NCBI GenBank assembly: GCA_027489275.1
Contig: JAIYAB010000215.1
Span: 1 to 42,298, forward strand
Direction: 5' to 3'
Source: Hyphomicrobiales bacterium
GTDB taxonomy: Bacteria; Pseudomonadota; Alphaproteobacteria; Rhizobiales; Beijerinckiaceae
Length of the DNA stretch: 42,298 nucleotides
In this document: positions 23,164-34,908 of the stretch, one piece after another
Layout of the letters: each line of letters starts with the position of its first letter
Numbering within the stretch: the stretch's first letter is position 1
Made by a program: the position numbers and the translations under genes
Notes under the pieces: generated by a model
Database searches by the model: none
Seen by the model: the letters and a program-made list of their open reading frames with translations, nothing else
Told to the model about the DNA's origin: nothing

Positions 23164-23181
23164 GGCGTGGATCCTTGCAGG

Positions 23182-23208
23182 AAAAAGGACTTGCGGGAGA
23201 GAGTCCTT
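23182..23208 (-). terminator. Rho-independent terminator candidate downstream of the 23.4-32.3 kb cluster
   Basis: Minus strand reads AAGGACT-CTCTCCCGCA-AGTCCTT followed by TTT: perfect 7-bp stem, 10-nt loop, T-tract (the stem's last TT extends into it). Confidence 0.6.
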
Positions 23209-23432
23209 GCGGGAGGCTAGTCGGCCGGCCGCGCACGAGGGCGCTGACGCTCGACGCCGGCATGGTCAACCACACCGGCACCGCCGCGCAAGCCTTGCCG
23301 TCGCAGACGCGCCATGTGCGGACCGGGCAGGGCGCGATGCCTGCGGCGTTCACGTCGGCACCACAGTCCGCGCCTTTCAGTCCCGCATTCCGCGGGGTGT
23401 CTCACGCGAGTCGACGTCCGAGCTCGTCGAAA

Positions 23433-25286
23433 TCACCGGCGCGCGACGAGACGGTCGGCAATGTTGGGATTGCCGCACAGGGCCGCCAGCGCAATCATCG
23501 CCGCGGTGTAGCCGCGCAGGGAATAGGTGACCGTGGCCGGCTGGCCCTGCGCCGTGACGCCCTGGATCGTCAGCGTTTGCCCCCGGGTCAGGCGCGGGAT
23601 CGTCTCGCGATCGAGGCACGTCCCGGCCGGACAACCGACGACGCTGGCGATCGCGCCGTCGGCATCGACGCCGATCGGAATGGCATCGCCCGCGCCCCCG
23701 CGATAGCCGATCCGCGCCTGCAGCCGCCAACCCTTCGCGTAATGCCGCGCGTCGTCGAAAACCTGTTTCACGTCGACGACGGCGTACGCGTCGAGGGCGG
23801 CGGCGTTTCCCCGCTCCTGTCGCGCGTCAAGGGTCCGGAATTGCAGGACCGGACCGACCGTGCGCCATCCCGCGGCCGGCGCGAAATCGACCGCGGGCGT
23901 CGCGGCGTAGCATTCGCGACCGTAGGGTCCGTCGAACTCGCCGATGATCCAGTCCCCGGCGGTCTGGACGTAGCGACCCGCGAGTTCTCCGCTCAACGTC
24001 CCCGTCGTGCCGCGCACGCGGAGGACGTAGTCGACGGGCGCCCCGACCTGGCGGCGGATCCGGACGACGTAGCGTCCGGGCCCGACGACGAAACGCGTCA
24101 GCCCCGGCCGCGTGCGCACGGTCTGCCCCTCCACGTCCCCGCCGTGCTCCCCGGAGAGCGTCAGCGACAACGGCCCGGTCGCCATCGCCGGGTCGACGAC
24201 GGTCTCCAGGACCATGCGCGACCGCGCCTCCACGAGGAACAGGCGCTCGCGCTCATGCGGGCCGATCATGTCCCGGACGTAGCTCGGTTGTTCCGCGACA
24301 CGCAGGAACGCCGGGGCCATAGAGGCCTGAAACGCGGACTGCTCGACGCGCAGCCGGGTCGCGACAAACCGCGAGGGTTCGACGAACACCGTGTCGGAGA
24401 CCGCGTTGTGGATCGGGTGAACGACGTCGATGATGGCCCGCATCCGGTTCGGCATGAGCGACATCTGCACTTCGGCGCGCCACACCCCGTCCCGCCCATT
24501 GCTCCGCTCGCCGATCTCCCGCGACACGGTGATCCGGCGCACCGACGTGGTGATGACGGGCGATCGGTCGACCGCGTCCTGCAGCGCCCGTTGCAGGGAC
24601 CGCTCCACCGTTTTCCACTGGTCGTCGTCGGCTCCGCGGCCGTCGATCTGCGGCTGCTGCACGACGACGGCCAGATCGCCGTCGTCGTCGAGGACCAATC
24701 GCTGAGCGACCGTCTCGAACATGGTCTCCGGAGGATGGATGGGTTCCACCACGTGCTCGTCGCCCAGGTCCGCCGACGCAACGGGGAGCCCGCCGCATTC
24801 CGGGCGCGAATGACTGGCCGACAAGGCCAATCGGTAGTTGGCGACGTCGCCGCCGGGAACCCGGATGATGACGGGCGTCACGGCATAGTCCACCGCGCGC
24901 AGCAGCTCGGCGCGTCCTGTGTTCCGGCCGCCGACGAGATCGTCGTAATCGCTGACGCTCACTCCCGACGGCGCCGTGGCCGCGAACTGCTTGCGGATCT
25001 GAAGAAGCAGGACCCGCTTCTGCGCCTCGGTCACGCCCTCGCTCTTCGGGGAAAAGGGCAGCACGGTCAGGCGCACCGGCCGGCCAGCGACACGGCACGG
25101 GCCGGAACCGCGCTCGCGCTGCGCGCCTTGCAGGATGTCGCGGACCGCGCGAAGGACGGGATGGTCGCGCGCGGGATCGGGCGCGGGCGCCGCGCGGGCC
25201 TGCGCGTGGCCAGCCCCAGGCGCCGCCGGCAGTGCGGCCAGCGACAGGACGAGGTGGAACAGGAGGAGGCCGACGAACGTGCGCAT
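23433..25286 (-). CDS. Large exported protein of unknown function with IalB-like C-terminal region
   Basis: Signal peptide MRTFVGLLLFHLVLSLAALPAAPGAGHA; C-terminus WRLQARIGYRGG...IPIGVDADGAIASVVGCPAGTCLDRETIPRLTRGQTLTIQGVTAQGQPATVTYSLRGYTAAMIAL resembles the invasion-associated locus B family. Confidence 0.75.
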   Translation of the reverse strand: MRTFVGLLLFHLVLSLAALPAAPGAGHAQARAAPAPDPARDHPVLRAVRDILQGAQRERGSGPCRVAGRPVRLTVLPFSPKSEGVTEAQKRVLLLQIRKQFAATAPSGVSVSDYDDLVGGRNTGRAELLRAVDYAVTPVIIRVPGGDVANYRLALSASHSRPECGGLPVASADLGDEHVVEPIHPPETMFETVAQRLVLDDDGDLAVVVQQPQIDGRGADDDQWKTVERSLQRALQDAVDRSPVITTSVRRITVSREIGERSNGRDGVWRAEVQMSLMPNRMRAIIDVVHPIHNAVSDTVFVEPSRFVATRLRVEQSAFQASMAPAFLRVAEQPSYVRDMIGPHERERLFLVEARSRMVLETVVDPAMATGPLSLTLSGEHGGDVEGQTVRTRPGLTRFVVGPGRYVVRIRRQVGAPVDYVLRVRGTTGTLSGELAGRYVQTAGDWIIGEFDGPYGRECYAATPAVDFAPAAGWRTVGPVLQFRTLDARQERGNAAALDAYAVVDVKQVFDDARHYAKGWRLQARIGYRGGAGDAIPIGVDADGAIASVVGCPAGTCLDRETIPRLTRGQTLTIQGVTAQGQPATVTYSLRGYTAAMIALAALCGNPNIADRLVARR

Positions 25287-25315
25287 GGCGCGGGACGAGG
25301 CGCGGAGCAGACTCG

Positions 25316-25804
25316 TCAGAGTTCCCAGCTCACCCGACCGTCCCCCTGTCTCACCTGGCAGGCGCGGCCGGAACCGGTCTGCTGGCCTTCCCTGAAGCTT
25401 GCAGATTCGCGGCACGAGAGGCCGCTGCCGTCACCCTTGGGAAAGGTTCGCACGTCCGTGCGGATGCGGATGTTTTCGCCGCTCTCGTTCTTGATGACGC
25501 GGGAGGACGAGCGGCCGGTCCTCAGGGCCAGTTGCCTCTGGCGGTCGATCTCGGCCCGCTCGACGGCGTCGCCGATCACCGCGCCGAGCACGCCGCCGAT
25601 GACCGCCCCGACGATCGCGCCGTCCCGTCCGTTGGCGGCCCCTCCGATCAGTCCGCCGGCCGCCGCCCCGGCCGCCCCCCCTGCGAGGGCGCCCCTTCCG
25701 GAGGTTCCCGTGCCCACGCACCCGGCGAGCAAGGTGCCTGCGAGCAGTACGACGACGATGGGGCGGAGACGGGAAACGGCTTGGCTCTGCAATCCGGTGA
25801 GCAT
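25316..25804 (-). CDS. Glycine-zipper lipoprotein
   Basis: Lipobox LLAGC after a hydrophobic signal; glycine zipper GALAGGAAGAAAGGLIGGAANGRDGAIVGAVIGGVLGAVIGDAVE. Confidence 0.8.
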   Translation of the reverse strand: MLTGLQSQAVSRLRPIVVVLLAGTLLAGCVGTGTSGRGALAGGAAGAAAGGLIGGAANGRDGAIVGAVIGGVLGAVIGDAVERAEIDRQRQLALRTGRSSSRVIKNESGENIRIRTDVRTFPKGDGSGLSCRESASFREGQQTGSGRACQVRQGDGRVSWEL

Positions 25805-25871
25805 CGATCGAATTCCTGAAAACGATGAAACAACGAGAAACGTGACGGAACGGCAAATGCAGAAAACGCTA

Positions 25872-26834
25872 CTACGGGGCTGCCGGCCGATCAATGACCG
25901 GCGCGGCTGGCGGCGCAGGCGATGGTCGGGCCTGCACGCGGATTCGCCTGTCGTCGAGGGCGACGGCGCCCGGCGTCGGCCAGAAGCCGGCAGCGGCCGC
26001 CATGTCTTCCGCGACCCGCGCCGGCGGAAGTCCGGTCTCGAGCCAGATCGACTGGCGCTGCGCTTCCAGGTCGATCACGCGGTGGCGCAGATAGCAGCCG
26101 AAGGCCGCGAGATAACGCTCGATACGCGGCAGGTCGGCGGGCGGATAGCCCGTGACTTCGACCTCGATGACCTGCCGCTGCCCGCAATCCGGTTGTGGTG
26201 GCGCGGGGGGTGCGACCTCCCGCACGCGCGGGGGCCTCACGAATGTCGCCAGCCGGCGCGTCAGCTCCTCGGCGAGTTCGGCCGCGATGGGGCGAGCCTG
26301 GTCGCCGATGCGGTCGATGAAGCAATCGCGCACGCAGCCGGGATTGATCGCGTCCAGCCTGGCGTTCGCGCCGCTCTCGAAGCGGGCGAAAAGCTGCCCC
26401 GTCTGGACGTGGATGATCCGTCCCGTGATGATCACGCGGGGCACCGGCCACGATCCGTCGGCCGGACGGGAGGCCGATGCCTGAATGTCGAAGATCAGGA
26501 GCGCATCGATCGGCGGTTGCGAGATGGCGCGGGCGATGTCGACGAGTTCGAAGTCCCGGCGAAGCGTCCGCGTCGGCGAGGTGAAGTCCGCGGTGACCGC
26601 GGTCTCGTCGTAGACACGGAACTCGCTGCGGCTCAGGACGTCGTTCAGGGCGGTGACGACGCGCGCGAAGACTCGGTTGTCTCGCCGGACTGCGCGGGGC
26701 TGGGCATCTTCCCCGAGAGCGAGGATGTTCACCTGCTGGGCCGGCGCCATCGTCGGCGTCAGCGACAGGACAACCGCCAGCGCCACGGCGGCGAGGCTCG
26801 GGCCCAACGTCGCGGTGCTCCGCAGCGACACCAT
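25872..26834 (-). CDS. Exported protein, CsgG/TolB-like fold suspected (copy 2 of a paralogous pair)
   Basis: Clear full-length similarity to 30749..31690. Start taken as MVSLRSTATLG, overlapping the upstream stop as TGATG. Confidence 0.78.
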   Translation of the reverse strand: MVSLRSTATLGPSLAAVALAVVLSLTPTMAPAQQVNILALGEDAQPRAVRRDNRVFARVVTALNDVLSRSEFRVYDETAVTADFTSPTRTLRRDFELVDIARAISQPPIDALLIFDIQASASRPADGSWPVPRVIITGRIIHVQTGQLFARFESGANARLDAINPGCVRDCFIDRIGDQARPIAAELAEELTRRLATFVRPPRVREVAPPAPPQPDCGQRQVIEVEVTGYPPADLPRIERYLAAFGCYLRHRVIDLEAQRQSIWLETGLPPARVAEDMAAAAGFWPTPGAVALDDRRIRVQARPSPAPPAAPVIDRPAAP

Positions 26835-27463
26835 CAGCGCGCGGGAAGGCACGGCAGGAAAGGCCCGCCGGGCTGAAAATCGTCGAGATCGTGCCGGGCG
26901 TGCACGCAGCCGTTTCCTTCGCGGCGCTCGTGAAAGCCCCGAAGGTGCGCCAGGGAGCGCACGATCGTCGTCCTGTCGCGCCAGGACGTGCTCGCGACAT
27001 GATGCGGGCTCGCGAGGTTGGACGGAGCGCCCGCGGGAGCGATGGCGACCTCGACGGTTCCGGCCCCGGCGGCGCGATCGACGAGACCGGTTTCGATCTG
27101 CGAGGGACCGAACTGACCGCTCGCGATCAGGACGTCGCGGACGGCCTGCGCGCGGGCCCTGGCAGTGTGCCGCTCGTCCTCGCGGGTCCCGACGACGACG
27201 CCGGCGATGTTGACCTTGACGCCGGAGCCGCCTCGTTCGCGCAGCCGCCCGGCGAAGGCGGCGAGCGTGGCTCTCGCGTCCTCGCCGACATTCATGACCG
27301 GCCCCTCGACCAGAACGACGACGCGCGACAGGTGCTCGACCGACACTTCGGGCGGACCGCGGTCAGCCGCGATTCGGCCGGGCTCAGTCGCTGCGGCGGG
27401 CGCGGCCGCCAGCGCCAGCAGCCCGGCTGCGACATGGGCGAGGTTGGATCGACGTCTGCTCAT
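26834..27463 (-). CDS. Exported protein with divergent OmpA-C-like domain
   Basis: Signal peptide; ARATLAAFAGRLRERGGSGVKVNIAGVVVGTREDERHTARARAQAVRDVLIASGQFGPSQIE matches the OmpA-C helix/strand pattern but lacks the usual GHTD. Confidence 0.7.
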   Translation of the reverse strand: MSRRRSNLAHVAAGLLALAAAPAAATEPGRIAADRGPPEVSVEHLSRVVVLVEGPVMNVGEDARATLAAFAGRLRERGGSGVKVNIAGVVVGTREDERHTARARAQAVRDVLIASGQFGPSQIETGLVDRAAGAGTVEVAIAPAGAPSNLASPHHVASTSWRDRTTIVRSLAHLRGFHERREGNGCVHARHDLDDFQPGGPFLPCLPAR

Positions 27464-27559
27464 GTTCGACTCCCGTCAAGGGCGGCGTGAGCCGCGTTCG
27501 TCAGCGCAATGGAGGCCGGAGGAGGATTTTGTCGCCGTCCCCAGGCGGATGCGGCGGCC

Positions 27560-28810
27560 TCATCGAAAATCTCCGCCGACATCGACTGCGATGACGAGAC
27601 CGTCGCCCCCGCCCGCCCGGTCGAGCGCGACAGAGACGCGCAGATCGGGCCTGCGCCGGTGGGCCAGGACGATCTGGATGCCGCCGTCGCCGGTCGGCGA
27701 TCGGCGAAGTTCATGCGCTTCGAGCCCGGTGACGCGGCGGATGCGCCAGCCTGGCGCCGGCACGAGGCGCAGGCCGCACAGCGAGCGTCCGCCGGCCGCA
27801 GAGAATGCACCGTCAGCTCCGGCATGAAGCGTCTCCTCGACATAGGGCGTCCGGCCGTCGAACGATTCCAGACATGTCGACTTCGGCTCGCCAGAGAGGC
27901 GCAGGAGCGAAAGCGCCATGTCGGGCGTCGCAGCGGCTTCGACCGACGGCAACGACGGGGGCGGGGGCGCGGCCGACAGCGCGCCCGGCAGGACCGAGGC
28001 CGGCTTCGGCGCGACTTCGAGGCGGGGAGCGTCGGGAACGGCGTCGTGCCCCATCGGGCCGAGACCGAACTGGAGCGCCGCGGCGCTGCCCACCATCAGT
28101 GCGCCAGCCACGATCGCGACGCGGCCCGGAGCCCTCGAAATCAGGTGGTCCAGCATCGACGGGTGGGGGACCTCGGACCCGGCTTCGGCGTTGCCCGGCG
28201 ACAACCCGCGCAGCGCGCCGTCCAGTGCATCGGCGACCTCGCCGACCGTCGAGACGTGGCGCATGTCACCCGGAGGCGGTGTCGCCGCGACGTTGCCGTC
28301 CCGGGGCTGTGGGGGAATCAGGATGAGGCGCTCCCCGTGATCCGCGGGGGCCAGGAGGGTGGCCGAAGCGTCGAGCTTTCGGGAGACGGCATAGTCTTCC
28401 GTCCGGATTGCGATCGCCCGGGCGGACGCCGCGACGTCGAGCGCGATCGCGCCCGTAGCCCAGACGACGAGTTGCGCTTCGCCCGGCGTCGGGACGAGCC
28501 TGCATCCCCGGGCCACGAGGACGTGGGCGCACAGAACGGGCACCTGCCAGCTCAGGCCGTGATCCAGCCGCTCCGCCAGCACCAGCACCCACGGCCCCTG
28601 CGGCATGTCGGGGAGCAGGCGGCCGAGGCTTCCGACCGGCTGCAGCATGAGGCCGTATGCCCTGCTCACCTCTGCATCCTCGACATAGGCGGGCGTGACG
28701 ACCGTCGAATAGGCGAGTTGAGGGTACGGGCGAAGCTGCAGGATCGGTACTGGACCCGCCGTCGTGGGCACGACGACGTGGACGGCGAGTGGATCGGATC
28801 GCCGTGTCAC
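27560..28810 (-). CDS. Unknown protein; N-terminal soluble domain, one central TM, C-terminal extracytoplasmic domain
   Basis: 416-aa ORF, GTG start in 4-nt overlap with upstream gene; TM-like RVAIVAGALMVGSAAALQFGL; Pro-rich linker; Cys in the C-terminal domain. Confidence 0.75.
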   Translation of the reverse strand: MTRRSDPLAVHVVVPTTAGPVPILQLRPYPQLAYSTVVTPAYVEDAEVSRAYGLMLQPVGSLGRLLPDMPQGPWVLVLAERLDHGLSWQVPVLCAHVLVARGCRLVPTPGEAQLVVWATGAIALDVAASARAIAIRTEDYAVSRKLDASATLLAPADHGERLILIPPQPRDGNVAATPPPGDMRHVSTVGEVADALDGALRGLSPGNAEAGSEVPHPSMLDHLISRAPGRVAIVAGALMVGSAAALQFGLGPMGHDAVPDAPRLEVAPKPASVLPGALSAAPPPPSLPSVEAAATPDMALSLLRLSGEPKSTCLESFDGRTPYVEETLHAGADGAFSAAGGRSLCGLRLVPAPGWRIRRVTGLEAHELRRSPTGDGGIQIVLAHRRRPDLRVSVALDRAGGGDGLVIAVDVGGDFR

Positions 28811-29352
28811 AGCAGGAACACCTCCGAGTCCGGGTGAACGAAGAGCGCGAGGATCCGCGCCGCCTCCGGGTCGCCGGGAGGCAGCAGGGCCTGGACGCGG
28901 CCGTCGCGGGGCGCGGGGAGAGCCACCTCGGCGACGTCGCCCGCCCCCTCGATGACGAGCCGTCCCGGCGCCTGGTCGCCGAAACCGTCGATGACGAGGA
29001 CCCCCGGCAGATCGCCCTCGCCCTCCCGCAACTCGATCGAAATGGGGCCGAGGCGACGGAGCGTCCCGGTGCCGTCGGCCGCGGCCTTCATCAGGCCCGA
29101 CCGGGCGACCGCACGCGAGGCGACCATGTTGCGGTAGAGCGTGCGCATGACGGGGTCGTCACGGATGGCGCGAACAACCGTCAGCGAGGGCACCGCGGAT
29201 GCGCAAGCATGCCGCCACAGCTCGACCATACGGACGGACGCAGGGGAAACCTCGCCCGATACTATTTCCCGAAAGGCATCGGTGGCGGCGTCGCGCGCCG
29301 CGGCGTGGCCCGCGCGGTCCGCCGGCGGGCCGGCTTGGCTTGGCTGTGTCAT
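28807..29352 (-). CDS. Unknown cytoplasmic protein (181 aa)
   Basis: ATGA overlap with upstream gene (29349) and GTGA overlap with downstream gene (28810); no signal peptide or TM. Confidence 0.72.
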   Translation of the reverse strand: MTQPSQAGPPADRAGHAAARDAATDAFREIVSGEVSPASVRMVELWRHACASAVPSLTVVRAIRDDPVMRTLYRNMVASRAVARSGLMKAAADGTGTLRRLGPISIELREGEGDLPGVLVIDGFGDQAPGRLVIEGAGDVAEVALPAPRDGRVQALLPPGDPEAARILALFVHPDSEVFLL

Positions 29353-30731
29353 GGAACCTGGCCTCCGGAAGCGACGTAGAGCCGTGTGAAAAGGCGGGAA
29401 AAGACCTCGCGGTCGTGACGTTCCTGCTCCCATGATGCATCGGCGAGACCCGCTTTCGCGGCTGCGGACATGAAAGCCCGCAGTTCGTCCCCGATCGTGG
29501 CAAGGGCGGGCGCCGCGGCGGCAAACATCGGCGCCAGCACTTCGCGAGGCACGTCGAAGCCGGTGCGCCGCTCCGCACGCAGCAGCAACCATCCGCGTTC
29601 GGCGGCACGAGCGACCCTGTCCGGCGGCAACCCCTCGGGCGGGTTGAGCGCGATGTGCATGGACGCGAGCGCGTCGATCCGCTCGATCGTGGCGGCGATG
29701 GCTTCGAGCGTCTCGGCGAAGCGAGGGGCGGATTTCCCGTTGACCAGGTCAGTTACATCGGCCTTGCCCTGCGAGCGCTTGAGGCGGTTCACGCACATCA
29801 TCTGCCACCGCGACACCGCGATCGCACGAAGGCAAGTCAGGGGCAGGCGTCGGTGCCACGGTGCGAAGCGCAGGACGTCCAGAGCCCTGTCCCTCTCCGC
29901 CTGGGTCAGGAACTTGGGACTGGCCGGAAGCGAGGCGAGGAGGTCGACGAGGTCCAGCGGATCGACGCCCGCAGGCTCCTCGAAGCGGTCGTCGGAACCG
30001 TCGAGAGCAGCCTCGTCCTCGGTGGCGGCTTCGCCGACACGGGCGCGCACGTCCGTCTCGATCCTTGCCTCCAGCTCGGCCAGCAGAGCCGTCGTCGCGG
30101 TCGAGAAGAGCGGGCGCTCGCCCTGCTCCACGAGTTCGCAGAAGAACCGGATGGCCAACTCCTCCCTCGGCTCGGCGCCGTGCCGGGCCAGGAAGCGGTG
30201 GAGCGCTGCGGAGCGCTGATCGGTGCGCAGGCCCAGGACGTGGCGTCGGCGGTATCGGTCGGCGAGCGCCGCGAATCGCCGGCGTGCGATTGCGAAGCCC
30301 GCGTCCGTATCGTCTCCGCAAAGGTCGCGGATGACGGCTCGGAACTCTCCGAAGCCGTCGCCGCATTCGCAGAGTGCGAGAAACGCGCCGAACGTGCAGG
30401 CGTCTGCCATCCGCAAGGCTCCCAGCCGCATCTGCGGCGCCGTCTCCGAGACATCCACCTCCATCGCGCGCAACGCGCCGGGCGCTCCGGATCGCGGATC
30501 GAGCAGCAGGGCCAGAACCGAGTCGATGCCGTCCTCTGGCCCGGAGCTGGCACGGCGCAGGAAGAAGGCGAGGGTCGCCGTGAGATCGTGAGCGGGCCGG
30601 TCGCGGTTGCGCCCGGCGCCGAACCCCGCCACCGATCGCGCGAGCCGCAGCACGGCATGATCGGAGAGGGCCCGGTCGCCGCGCACCAGATCGAGGTCGG
30701 CGATGAGGGTGTCGTCGAACTGCGCGAACAT
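29349..30731 (-). CDS. Unknown cytoplasmic protein (460 aa, helix-rich by composition)
   Basis: Long ORF starting 17 bp after the upstream gene; tightly coupled to its downstream gene; no recognised family. Confidence 0.75.
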   Translation of the reverse strand: MFAQFDDTLIADLDLVRGDRALSDHAVLRLARSVAGFGAGRNRDRPAHDLTATLAFFLRRASSGPEDGIDSVLALLLDPRSGAPGALRAMEVDVSETAPQMRLGALRMADACTFGAFLALCECGDGFGEFRAVIRDLCGDDTDAGFAIARRRFAALADRYRRRHVLGLRTDQRSAALHRFLARHGAEPREELAIRFFCELVEQGERPLFSTATTALLAELEARIETDVRARVGEAATEDEAALDGSDDRFEEPAGVDPLDLVDLLASLPASPKFLTQAERDRALDVLRFAPWHRRLPLTCLRAIAVSRWQMMCVNRLKRSQGKADVTDLVNGKSAPRFAETLEAIAATIERIDALASMHIALNPPEGLPPDRVARAAERGWLLLRAERRTGFDVPREVLAPMFAAAAPALATIGDELRAFMSAAAKAGLADASWEQERHDREVFSRLFTRLYVASGGQVP

Positions 30732-30748
30732 GGCCGCCCGATCGCCGT

Positions 30749-31690
30749 TCAGCGGGTGACGGTCTTGATCACCTCGAAGCGATTGCCGGAGAAGGTGACG
30801 TTGCCGCGGGAGCCCATGAACTCGACCATCTGGCGCAAGTTGCGGTTCAGCCGAGCATTGTCTGTCCGCGCCTCGATCCAGTAGTCGCTCTGGGAGTTGC
30901 TTACGCGCGTGGGCCGGATGTGCTCGACGCAGCGGAAGGCCCGGACCATTTCCTCGATGCGGCTGATCTCGTCGCTGGTGAAATCACGCAGGACCAGCAT
31001 GAAGGCCGTCGGCAGCCCGTCGCAACCCTCGAGCGCGGCAACCTGCTGAGCGGGCGCCGCCGCTGCCGGCTGGGCCGGAGCGGTGGCGACCGCGGGCGGA
31101 GCGGCGGCGCCGATGAACCCTTCGAGCTTCGTGCCGAGTTCCCGGGCCACGTCCGACGAAAGACGCCGGGCCTCGTCGCCCACGCGCTCGAGCAGGCATT
31201 CGCGATCCGAACAATTGACCGGCAGCGGATCGAAGGTGATGCCGGGGCCGACCTCGAACGTGCCGATCAACTGACCGGTACGGACGTTGAGCAGCCGGAC
31301 AGGGATCCGGATTTCGGGACGGCTGACGACCGACCCGGAACGAATGGACGTGTAGATCTGGAAGACGGCGATGACATCCATCGGTGGCTGGATGGCGCGA
31401 GCGACCTCGTAGAGCTCCCCGTCCGTCCGGCGCACCCGCCCCTGCGGCATGGTCGCCAGTGTGGTCCCGACCTCGTCATAGACCTGGAACCCGCGGGTGT
31501 TCAGCTCTTCCTGGAGCCCCAGGACGACGCGGTTGTAGATCCGGTTCTGCCTGGGCACCGTCTCCTGGTCGGCGTCGTCGGACACGACCAGGACATTGAC
31601 GCGTTTCACGCGCACTTGGGCGTCGGCGGGGGGTGACGAGGCGGCGGCGAAGACCGCCAGGCCGAGAGCGATCAGCAAAGAGCGAAACAT
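30749..31690 (-). CDS. Exported protein, CsgG/TolB-like fold suspected (copy 1 of a paralogous pair)
   Basis: Signal peptide; KRVNVLVVSDDADQETVPRQNRIYNRVVLGLQEELNTRGFQVYDE...NVRTGQLIGTFEVG; paralogue at 25872..26834. Confidence 0.8.
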   Translation of the reverse strand: MFRSLLIALGLAVFAAASSPPADAQVRVKRVNVLVVSDDADQETVPRQNRIYNRVVLGLQEELNTRGFQVYDEVGTTLATMPQGRVRRTDGELYEVARAIQPPMDVIAVFQIYTSIRSGSVVSRPEIRIPVRLLNVRTGQLIGTFEVGPGITFDPLPVNCSDRECLLERVGDEARRLSSDVARELGTKLEGFIGAAAPPAVATAPAQPAAAAPAQQVAALEGCDGLPTAFMLVLRDFTSDEISRIEEMVRAFRCVEHIRPTRVSNSQSDYWIEARTDNARLNRNLRQMVEFMGSRGNVTFSGNRFEVIKTVTR

Positions 31691-31726
31691 TGGGAAATCT
31701 CCTGTCGATGCAAAATTGATGGGTGA

Positions 31727-32299
31727 TCAATCGACGATGACGGCGACCTCGACACGCCGGTTCGATGCGTCAAAGGGGCGTGAGGCGTCCTTGAGTTCCG
31801 CCGGCCCGAAACCGTGGACCAGGAGGCGGCGCGCCTCGATCTCGTGCACGACGACGAGGTGTTGCCGCACGGCGCGGGCGCGGCGGAAGGACAGGTCGAC
31901 GTTGTAGTCCGCCCGCCCCTTCGCGTCCGTGTGACCGGCGATGAGAATACGCGATCGCGCGAGGACCGGCGTGCGAAGCGCGTCGGCCAGCGCGACGAGC
32001 GTTCGTGCGCCCTTCGGGAGGATCACGTCGCTGTCGAAGTCGAAGAAGACCGTGAGATCGACGGTGCGCACGGAACTGACGGATACGACGACACGGGAGC
32101 CCGAATCGTCGGCGGAAACCTGCCGCGGCAGCCTGGGCGCCGGACCGCCCGACTGCGGGGCCTGGGTGTCGGGCGCAAGGCTGCGCAGGATCCTCGTCCG
32201 CTCGGAATCGAGCGAGGCCTGAGCCAGGGCGGATGCGGCGGGCATGGTAGCCGCACTCGCCGAAAGTCCGGCCAGGAGGCCGCGACGACAGATGAGCAT
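31727..32299 (-). CDS. OmpA family protein
   Basis: Signal peptide; VFFDFDSDVILPKGARTLVALADAL...ILIAGHTDAKGRADYNVDLSFRRARAVRQHL...NRRVEVAV: canonical OmpA-C peptidoglycan-binding motif. Confidence 0.9.
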   Translation of the reverse strand: MLICRRGLLAGLSASAATMPAASALAQASLDSERTRILRSLAPDTQAPQSGGPAPRLPRQVSADDSGSRVVVSVSSVRTVDLTVFFDFDSDVILPKGARTLVALADALRTPVLARSRILIAGHTDAKGRADYNVDLSFRRARAVRQHLVVVHEIEARRLLVHGFGPAELKDASRPFDASNRRVEVAVIVD

Positions 32300-32400
32300 G
32301 TTCGTTCCTCGGTTTCCCTTGACTGACCCCGGATCGGCGTCCCTTCGTTTTCGGACTGGATTGCCGAGAAGTCTTTTTGGAATGATGTCCGCCAGATCCC

Positions 32401-32440
32401 ATGTTTTTCAAGTGAAACATCTTGTACAACCTAAGGTTGT
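32401..32440. promoter_or_regulatory. Two adjacent palindromes in the AT-rich divergent intergenic region between the OmpA-led operon and the S8 protease gene
   Basis: ATGTTTTTCAAGTGAAACAT (32401-32420) and ACAACC-TAA-GGTTGT (32426-32440), with TTGTACAA at 32422-32429. Confidence 0.5.
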
Positions 32441-32555
32441 TTCTCACCGTTGTTCTCCATCTCGGTTCATTGTTTGACTCGATCGCCGAATGGGGAAGAA
32501 TTCGGTCTGGTTTTGCCATGCAGTAATTGACGAAGCGGCTGCAGGAGACTTGACG

Positions 32556-34187
32556 ATGAAACCCGTTCCTCGGTTTGCGCGGCTCGCGATGGCGGCGGCT
32601 CTTCTCGGTGTCGCCGGCGCAGGAGGCGGCCATGCCCAGGCTCCGCCGCAGGCTGGCAAGATCGACCCGCAGGTTGCCGCCGCGCTGGCGTCCGGCGGGA
32701 AGACCCAAGTCCTCGTGATCGCCCGCAGGATGTCCTCCGGGGGGCAGGCGACGCCGGTGGGGGCGACCACCCTGTTGCAGGGGCTCACGCAGATCCTGCG
32801 GAGCGAGGCGCCGATCATTCGCGAGACCGGAGCGCCGGGGATCGTCTCGGCCTCGCTCGACGCGCGCGGCGTGCAGTCGCTGGCGGCGCGGGCGGACGTG
32901 ATGGCCATCGTCCCGAATCTCTCGATGGATCACATCGTCGAACCGCCCCGGGCCGGGGCCACGGCCCGGCCCTTCGCGAAGGACACCGACCACCTGATCG
33001 AGGTCGATCGGCTGCACCGGGCCGGGCTGTTCGGACGGGGCGTCACGATCGCTGTGATCGACGATGGCCTCGACGGGGCGCATCCGATGTTCGCCGGAGC
33101 GCTGGTCGGAGAGGCCTGCTTCAGCACCCACGCGCCCGAGGCCGGCATGGAGTCCCTGTGTCCGCAGCAGAAGAGTCCGTCAGTCGGCCCCGGAGCGGCC
33201 CAGAACTGCCAACCTGACGGCTCGCACTGCGGGCACGGCACACACGTGGCCGGCATCGCCCTCGGACGGCCGGTCAAATCCGGCCCGAACGTGGTGACGG
33301 GCGTCGCGCCGGGAGCCGGCCTCTACATGATCAGGGCGGCCCACCGGATCGCGCGCTGCAAGGAGGCGGGACCGGAAAGCTGCATCACGTTCAACTCGGG
33401 CGACGTCCTGGGAGCGCTTCATCATGTCACCGAGGTGGCCGAGAAGCATCGCATCAGGGTCGTGAACCTGAGCCTGGGGGGCGGAAACTTTCCGTTCAAC
33501 TGCGACCTGATCCCGAACGAGCTCATCCGCGGCCTGGCCGCCGTCGTCGCCCAGCTTCGGGCGAAGGGCGTCGTCGTGGTCGCCGCGGCCGGGAACTCGG
33601 GAAGCGGGCGTGGCATCGGCCACCCCGCCTGCCTGGGCGGTGTCGTCAGCGTCGGCTCCATCGACAGTGACGGGCAGGTCACTTCCTTCTCGGATTCCGC
33701 CATCAAGGTCGATCTCCTGGCGCCCGGCCGCGACGTCCTGTCAGCGGCGCCCGGGGGAGGCCTCGTCCGCTTGAACGGAACGTCGATGGCCAGCCCCTAC
33801 GCCGCCGGCGTCATTGCCGCCATGCGCGCGGGCTTCCTGCCGATCGTCCCGGACTCCAGCATCGTGGACGCGCTGAAGCGAACAGGGCGCTACATCCGCG
33901 ATCCGCGTAACGATCTCTACTTTCCCGTTATCCAGGCGTGGCGCGCGACCGAGGCTGTGGTGCGGGCCGGCGGTTCTGGCGTGATCGCCGACAACGCTGC
34001 CGAAGCCGCGGCGGCTCCTGGCGCCACTGCGAAGGCCGGGCCGGCGCCGGTCACGGACGCGAAACATGCGGACGTGGCCTCGCCGCCATCGCCCGCTCCT
34101 CCAGCCCGGGCGACGCCCCCTGCGCCGGCCCTCCCGGCGGCCGTACCCGCGAACGACCTCCTGCGCTCGGCGGCACCGGTCCAATAG
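32556..34187 (+). CDS. Secreted subtilisin-like serine protease (S8)
   Basis: Triad Asp IAVIDDGLDG, His GHGTHVAG, Ser NGTSMASPYAAG; signal peptide; I9-like propeptide region; Ala/Pro-rich C-terminal tail. Confidence 0.93.
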   Translation: MKPVPRFARLAMAAALLGVAGAGGGHAQAPPQAGKIDPQVAAALASGGKTQVLVIARRMSSGGQATPVGATTLLQGLTQILRSEAPIIRETGAPGIVSASLDARGVQSLAARADVMAIVPNLSMDHIVEPPRAGATARPFAKDTDHLIEVDRLHRAGLFGRGVTIAVIDDGLDGAHPMFAGALVGEACFSTHAPEAGMESLCPQQKSPSVGPGAAQNCQPDGSHCGHGTHVAGIALGRPVKSGPNVVTGVAPGAGLYMIRAAHRIARCKEAGPESCITFNSGDVLGALHHVTEVAEKHRIRVVNLSLGGGNFPFNCDLIPNELIRGLAAVVAQLRAKGVVVVAAAGNSGSGRGIGHPACLGGVVSVGSIDSDGQVTSFSDSAIKVDLLAPGRDVLSAAPGGGLVRLNGTSMASPYAAGVIAAMRAGFLPIVPDSSIVDALKRTGRYIRDPRNDLYFPVIQAWRATEAVVRAGGSGVIADNAAEAAAAPGATAKAGPAPVTDAKHADVASPPSPAPPARATPPAPALPAAVPANDLLRSAAPVQ

Positions 34188-34205
34188 TGTCGCCTGCGCG
34201 TTCGA

Positions 34206-34233
34206 GGTGACAGCGTGCTTCTAGCGCGTCACC
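34206..34233. terminator. Candidate hairpin between convergent genes (GGTGAC...GTCACC)
   Basis: Perfect 6-bp arms, 16-nt loop, at the junction of the S8 and 34221..34559 genes; no clear T-tract. Confidence 0.3.
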
Positions 34234-34559
34234 CGCCCCATGCGGTTCAGCACCTCGCGCGGAATCCCGTAGGCCTTCACCACCGCATCCCAGTGCCGCA
34301 GGCCGCACAGCTCCCGCTGGATCATCAGGGACCACACGCGGTCGGCGGCGGCATCCCGCAGCGCCGCGAGCCGCTCTTCCCCCTCCGGGCCGTGCACCTC
34401 CGCCTCGTGAGCCCGCAAACGGGCGAGCGCTTCCTCGACCTGCCGCCCGAGGTCGCCGAGCGCTTGCGCCTTGAGCTGCGCCAGCTCGTACTCGAGCACG
34501 TTGACGCCGCTCTCCGGCCGATGGCCGGGCGACAGGCTCTGGGGGATGCGAAACGTCAT
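34221..34559 (-). CDS. Small conserved-looking hypothetical protein (tentatively DUF6665-like)
   Basis: MTFRIPQSLSPGHRPESGVNVLEYELAQLKAQALGDLGRQVEEAL...; family name from memory and uncertain. Confidence 0.6.
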   Translation of the reverse strand: MTFRIPQSLSPGHRPESGVNVLEYELAQLKAQALGDLGRQVEEALARLRAHEAEVHGPEGEERLAALRDAAADRVWSLMIQRELCGLRHWDAVVKAYGIPREVLNRMGRVTR

Positions 34560-34908
34560 GCTCTCCTCGCCTGATGCGCGCGCCGTCGGAACGGGCCGGG
34601 GCGGATCGTTCGCCGGCAGGATGGCGCGGGGAAGGCCGCAAGGAAAGATCCGGCCCGTTCGGCTGCGGAGCCTGTCCCCTGGCATGACGGGCGTGTCGCG
34701 GACCCTGCTTGACAAGGCCCGGCAGGCGACACCACTGTGTGTATAACAATCCTACACTGCGAAATCCGGTCTGAGAGACGACATGAGCCGCCGCCCGGCG
34801 ACGGGGCGGCTCGTGATCGCGAAACCGTGCGTCCCGCCGCGGCTCATGTTGCGTCGCGGACGCGCTTCATGGCCGCAAGGGCCTGTCGGGCGTCGAAAGG
34901 ATGCAGAG

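Follow-up and report, generated by a model that had tools for sequence, protein, structure and literature searches.

Two OmpA-type and CsgG-like gene pairs flank a three-gene core in an uncharacterised envelope gene cluster of Alphaproteobacteria

The window analysed here, a stretch of 42,298 nucleotides from a Hyphomicrobiales bacterium (contig JAIYAB010000215.1), carries on its minus strand the genes OmpA1, CsgG-like 1, P460, P181, P416, OmpA2 and CsgG-like 2, in that order. Every one of them is an uninterrupted open reading frame, and the genes follow closely on one another, head to tail. OmpA1 (31727-32299) encodes an exported protein with a canonical OmpA peptidoglycan-binding-type domain (GHTDAKG...LSFRRA; Pfam OmpA E 6.5e-17) and precedes CsgG-like 1 (30749-31690), an exported two-domain protein of the CsgG/TolB/FlgT/PelC fold with conserved Cys160 and Cys165. 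The core that follows consists of P460 (29349-30731), which matches no known family and in which no export signal was seen, P181 (28807-29352), whose start overlaps the end of P460, and P416 (27560-28810), which has a single predicted membrane helix at approximately residues 230-248. On the far side of this core lies OmpA2 (26834-27463), encoding a degenerate OmpA-like domain without the GHTD motif and a C-terminal DLDDFQPGGPFLPC motif; it shares a one-base overlap with CsgG-like 2 (25872-26834), a diverged paralogue on a long branch. An initial annotation of this DNA had given coordinates and a gene order that proved correct on the minus strand, and its description of two pairs of OmpA-type and CsgG-like genes flanking the 460-181-416 core is borne out by this order.

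Two further minus-strand genes lie downstream of CsgG-like 2. The first encodes a glycine-zipper lipoprotein (GlyZip, 25316-25804) with the lipobox LAGC (Pfam Gly-zipper_Omp E 1.2e-7), and the second, P660 (23433-25289), an exported protein of 618 residues from its likely start with an IalB-like C-terminus (Pfam IalB E 1.6e-5). GlyZip adjoins P660 in the same manner at other loci (L018, L042, L056 and L124). Judging from a profile match of its family (probability 69), P660 appears to be distantly related to a cluster protein that we term DUF4384-type, a name which reflects resemblance by eye, as no Pfam match was obtained at E 0.1. Divergent from OmpA1, on the plus strand, is a gene for a mycosin-like S8 subtilase (32490-34187; Pfam Peptidase_S8 E 6e-37), which is likely to be the protease of the window cluster. 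Members of the S8 family are also found beside CsgG-like genes at nine other loci (L022, L055, L060, L063-L065, L067, L075 and L081). No match to the Peptidase_C14/caspase family was found in the window genome, for which the assembly is 84% complete, and the S8 subtilase is present instead.

Comparison with a congener (G301) revealed an empty site. In this genome the genes for an M14 peptidase and a solute-binding protein that flank the cluster are approximately 250 bp apart and share 83-88% nucleotide identity with the window, and a 106-bp stretch next to the M14 gene is retained at the junction. Since the flanking genes are nearly adjacent in the congener, the region from about 23166 to 34700 (approximately 11.5 kb) is an island relative to G301, arising either by insertion here or by loss in the congener. 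At its right-hand edge, between the subtilase gene and that for the solute-binding protein, lies a DUF6665 gene (34221-34715, minus strand; E 5.8e-13), and the boundary is marked by a promoter-like stretch, TTGACAAG...TATAACAAT (34700-34760), which precedes the solute-binding protein gene and is common to G301. Neither the exported CsgG-like family nor P416 gave a match in any of the three congeners examined.

The two exported CsgG-like proteins align along their length, as the initial annotation had claimed (BLASTP, 30% identity and 46% positives over 305 residues, E 5e-33); the lack of a significant alignment, which it had named as the outcome that would count against its proposal, did not occur. 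In local alignment the mature proteins score 334, compared with a mean of 38 after shuffling (z about 50), and the C-terminal domains alone give z 9.3 by the same control. CsgG-like 2 retains both domains together with the cysteine pair. A search of the whole genome detected only these two full-length copies of the family, the sole additional hit being a 52-residue match on another contig (E 0.005). CsgG-like 1 and CsgG-like 2 are ancient paralogues. Neither the N-terminus of P660 as a further CsgG-like copy (z 0.2) nor a relationship between the CsgG-like family and the DUF4384-type protein (profile probability 4.6) was supported.

No Pfam model recognises this exported family. None of 45 family members matched the CsgG or TolB_N models at E 0.1, and a profile of the family found no match among PDB sequences. 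The AlphaFold model of CsgG-like 1 (45 homologues; mean pLDDT 86) comprises an N-terminal alpha/beta domain (approximately residues 31-192) and a C-terminal domain (approximately residues 228-309). Its best PDB fold matches in Foldseek are to an LPHT ring entry, FlgT, HpaA, GNA1162, PelBC/PelC and CsgG, with E values from 1e-5 to 7e-4 (3.6e-4 for the CsgG structure 4uv2). Because these matches lie mainly in the N-terminal domain, whole-length TM-scores are low (0.2-0.35). The label "CsgG/TolB-like" used in the initial annotation is therefore appropriate as a description of fold, but not as assignment to a curated family.

An OmpA-fold gene directly precedes each of the two exported genes, as had been noted initially, and the two OmpA-type proteins differ markedly. 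OmpA1 is a full member of the OmpA family (62.1 bits against a Pfam cut-off of 27.2), whereas OmpA2 falls below the cut-off (15.5 bits; E 0.023) and has GVVVGTRED in place of GHTD. When OmpA1 and OmpA2 were compared directly their similarity was at chance level (z 1.9-2.4). Nevertheless, the derivation of OmpA2 from OmpA is evident from the alignment of the two family profiles (hhalign probability 95.6, E 1.3e-8 over 126 columns, compared with 0.5 for an unrelated profile used as a negative control) and from its positional equivalent in genome G448 (L124:8914-9678), which passes the Pfam cut-off (34.7 against 27.2 bits). Members of the OmpA2 family end in a cysteine-flanked motif, [I/L]DD[F/Y]xPGGPxxxC, and this tail is kept across distant OmpA2 relatives. 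In the Methylobacterium and Pelagimonas clusters, the canonical OmpA proteins have a related end (LDLDDF...P...C). A frameshift as the origin of the long OmpA2 C-terminus was ruled out by conservation of the tail motif in L018, L042, L056 and the g108 genomes. OmpA2 belongs to a distinct family and, since it lacks GHTD, its binding of peptidoglycan is probably reduced.

Within the core, P416 combines an N-terminal domain, in which S87 and K145 are invariant, with a C-terminal beta domain, in which C313 and C345 are conserved; the model contains one long helix of the membrane-spanning type. No significant PDB fold match was obtained for this protein. Ser87, which lies in a GxSW motif, and Lys145, which lies in a K-containing motif, are invariant in 26 aligned sequences, a pattern suggestive of a Ser-Lys site. 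We considered a Lon-like protease for the N-terminal domain on this basis but do not propose it, as no Lon structure was among the PDB fold matches listed, none of which was significant; a profile search of PDB sequences with P416 likewise gave nothing Lon-like. In genome G018 a separate small exported protein (L022:12153-12845), encoded next to P416, matches the C-terminal domain of P416.

Fifty-eight loci were recovered in a search across 84,980 species genomes, and the content of loci was determined with iterated profiles on six-frame open reading frames, the window being GC-rich. Among 62 non-redundant loci, many of them on short contigs so that gene counts are minima, the whole P460-P181-P416 core is present in at least 38, an OmpA gene in at least 51 and one or more genes for an exported-type protease in at least 47; no protease was found within the available DNA at the other 15. 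Methylobacterium and Methylorubrum have the order caspase-like, DUF4384-type, P460, P181, P416, trypsin-like, OmpA and CsgG-like, and rearranged versions, some with WD40, FHA or Sel1 domains, are found in Rhodobacter-like, Rhodospirillales and Gammaproteobacteria loci. For example, Fertoeibacter niger encodes a WD40-repeat protein with 14 repeats (L048:10922-13651) between a CsgG-like gene and the core. In genomes G039 (L126, G039:C4) and G086 (L127, G086:C12) P416 and the CsgG-like gene are on different contigs, and thus the core and the CsgG-like gene can be unlinked. The locus represents an uncharacterised cluster of envelope genes found in Alphaproteobacteria, which has relatives in Gammaproteobacteria and usually also includes a protease.

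The initial annotation attributed the repeated gene order to duplication of a two-gene module followed by divergence. Paralogy of the CsgG-like proteins and the OmpA ancestry of both partners agree with this suggestion, but synteny and trees do not favour duplication of the module in place. We distinguish here a string A (OmpA1-CsgG1-P460-P181-P416) and a string B (OmpA2-CsgG2-GlyZip-P660). Four g108 genomes of the same family carry string A with a divergent OmpA2-type gene next to OmpA1, and a single CsgG-like gene was found in them. L018 and L056 have string A and, on the other side, OmpA2-type, trypsin-like, GlyZip and P660 genes, again with one CsgG-like gene found. The expectation that the pair would travel as a unit in relatives thus fails: OmpA2 adjoins OmpA1 in genomes with one CsgG-like gene (L018, L056 and g108), so that OmpA2 and CsgG2 do not behave as a module. 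In contrast, G448, a member of the same family, has the order OmpA1, OmpA2-like, CsgG, GlyZip and P660 (L124), and no P416 was found in this genome, which is 99% complete. The order of string B is not fixed, as L124 also has OmpA1 and a trypsin-like gene replaces CsgG2 in position in L018 and L056.

In the phylogenetic analysis, CsgG-like 1 groups with core-linked, string-A homologues in the careful tree (support 94/92). CsgG-like 2 does not fall with CsgG-like 1 in the best careful trees, and its placement is unsure because its branch is very long (3.6-3.8), with no stable position. It matches Methylobacterium homologues (39% identity, 174.8 bits) better than it does CsgG-like 1 (115.9 bits). 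Forcing the window copies together lowered the log likelihood by 3.5 (p-AU 0.099), and by 5.4 units in another sample (p 0.203); in a larger quick tree the pair held together scored higher (p-AU 0.893), the free search having missed that better tree. Placing CsgG-like 2 beside the whole string-A group cost only 0.16 log units.

It is conceivable, although we consider it unlikely, that this lineage duplicated an OmpA-CsgG pair around its core and that rapid divergence of the downstream pair followed. Both halves are indeed homologous (by BLASTP for the CsgG-like proteins and by profiles for OmpA), a sister relationship of the window copies was not rejected in any AU test (p 0.099-0.893), and there is a precedent in G018 (L022), where two OmpA-CsgG pairs flank the core and the CsgG copies are near-identical sisters. 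Against such a duplication, OmpA2 represents a separate family whose members adjoin OmpA1 in genomes where one CsgG-like gene was found, CsgG2 scores better to Methylobacterium than to CsgG1, and the order of string B is also seen without the core. In related genomes each string, or a very close equivalent of it, occurs separately, and therefore the mirrored order probably arose from the joining, or the shared descent, of two old strings rather than from recent duplication in place. Local duplication is less favoured than old separate strings; a very old duplication, after which the second copy decayed rapidly, is possible.

The very long branch of CsgG2 and the loss of GHTD from OmpA2 might alternatively indicate that selection on CsgG2 and its neighbours is weak and that these genes are remnants in decay, the second pair having no distinct role. 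This appears quite improbable to us given the intact frames arranged head to tail with a one-base OmpA2/CsgG2 overlap, the persistence of the cysteine pair and both domains in CsgG2, the conservation of the DDF tail in distant OmpA2 relatives and the recurrence of multi-copy clusters. At 16 of the 61 other non-redundant loci the exported family is represented at least twice, although in a few cases the extra copy is a long protein with an FHA domain or no other known domain and may reflect profile drift. Trees show several separate duplications in the family, and Fertoeibacter (L048) and a Rhodobacter bin (L049) each have two diverged copies that flank the core. Clusters of this kind thus repeatedly have more than one CsgG-like subunit.

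We consider it an evenly balanced question whether the window is the joined form of two old gene strings together with a working model in which envelope proteins act with a protease. Homology, fold, gene order and the empty site are observed here, whereas the assembly, the location of each part and the function are inferred. A bolder reading, one that may well prove wrong, is of an undescribed trans-envelope machine in which a P460-P181-P416 core at the cytoplasm and inner membrane is combined with OmpA-anchored rings of the CsgG/FlgT/PelC fold, a swappable protease and ring subunits repeatedly duplicated into distinct paralogues. In the working model, the likeliest in our view, the CsgG-like proteins would build rings or multimeric layers within the periplasm, as their modelled fold suggests, and OmpA1 would tie these layers to peptidoglycan. 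P416 would bridge the inner membrane to cytoplasmic P460 and P181. The exported protease, a subtilase here and trypsin-like or caspase-like elsewhere, could serve as a processing enzyme or as an effector acting on or through the assembly. Two diverged CsgG-like subunits might give stacked or mixed rings, and OmpA2 may have lost peptidoglycan binding while keeping a disulfide-capped docking tail.

The interchange of caspase-like, trypsin-like and subtilase genes, the presence of WD40, FHA and Sel1 domains in relatives and the sporadic, island-like distribution would also suit a system for defence or programmed death in place of an envelope machine; in such a system the protease would kill and the envelope proteins would act as the sensor. 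We think this decidedly unlikely, as most parts are exported and defence-model matches are only to generic subtilase, caspase and MotB-type models; searches of family libraries for defence and phage genes found no specific match for the cluster.

The analysis assigns a hitherto unannotated protein family to a fold that is familiar from ring-shaped structures of the envelope. It also connects this exported family with a conserved three-protein core and with exported bacterial proteases, caspases among them. Methylobacterium strains with the full cluster make direct testing feasible, and M. brachythecii DSM 24105 is one strain that has the cluster. The literature searched, of which coverage was partial, contained no description of the cluster, the exported family or the core. 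Of 217 metacaspase operons, 14 are reported to contain OmpA domains (Asplund-Samuelsson et al. 2012, PMC3501461), and to that extent such operons resemble the Methylobacterium loci, where caspase-like genes lie upstream of the core; CsgG-like proteins and the P460-P181-P416 core are not mentioned in the portion of that text examined.

Compared with OmpA-family peptidoglycan-binding proteins, OmpA1 is a typical member, whereas OmpA2 differs in lacking GHTD and in its DDFxPGGPxxPC tail. Like the CsgG, FlgT, PelC, HpaA and GNA1162 fold proteins, the window family is exported, and its predicted N-terminal alpha/beta domain matches theirs (E 1.5e-5 to 5e-4). Unlike them, it has an extra C-terminal beta-alpha-beta-beta-alpha-beta domain, is linked to OmpA, the core and proteases, and has no Pfam CsgG/TolB match. 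The CsgG curli pore is a lipidated, ring-shaped outer-membrane pore; no lipobox was seen in the sequences of the two window copies. Ring-forming proteins, namely PelC (dodecamer entries) and CsgG, are among the fold matches of CsgG-like 1.
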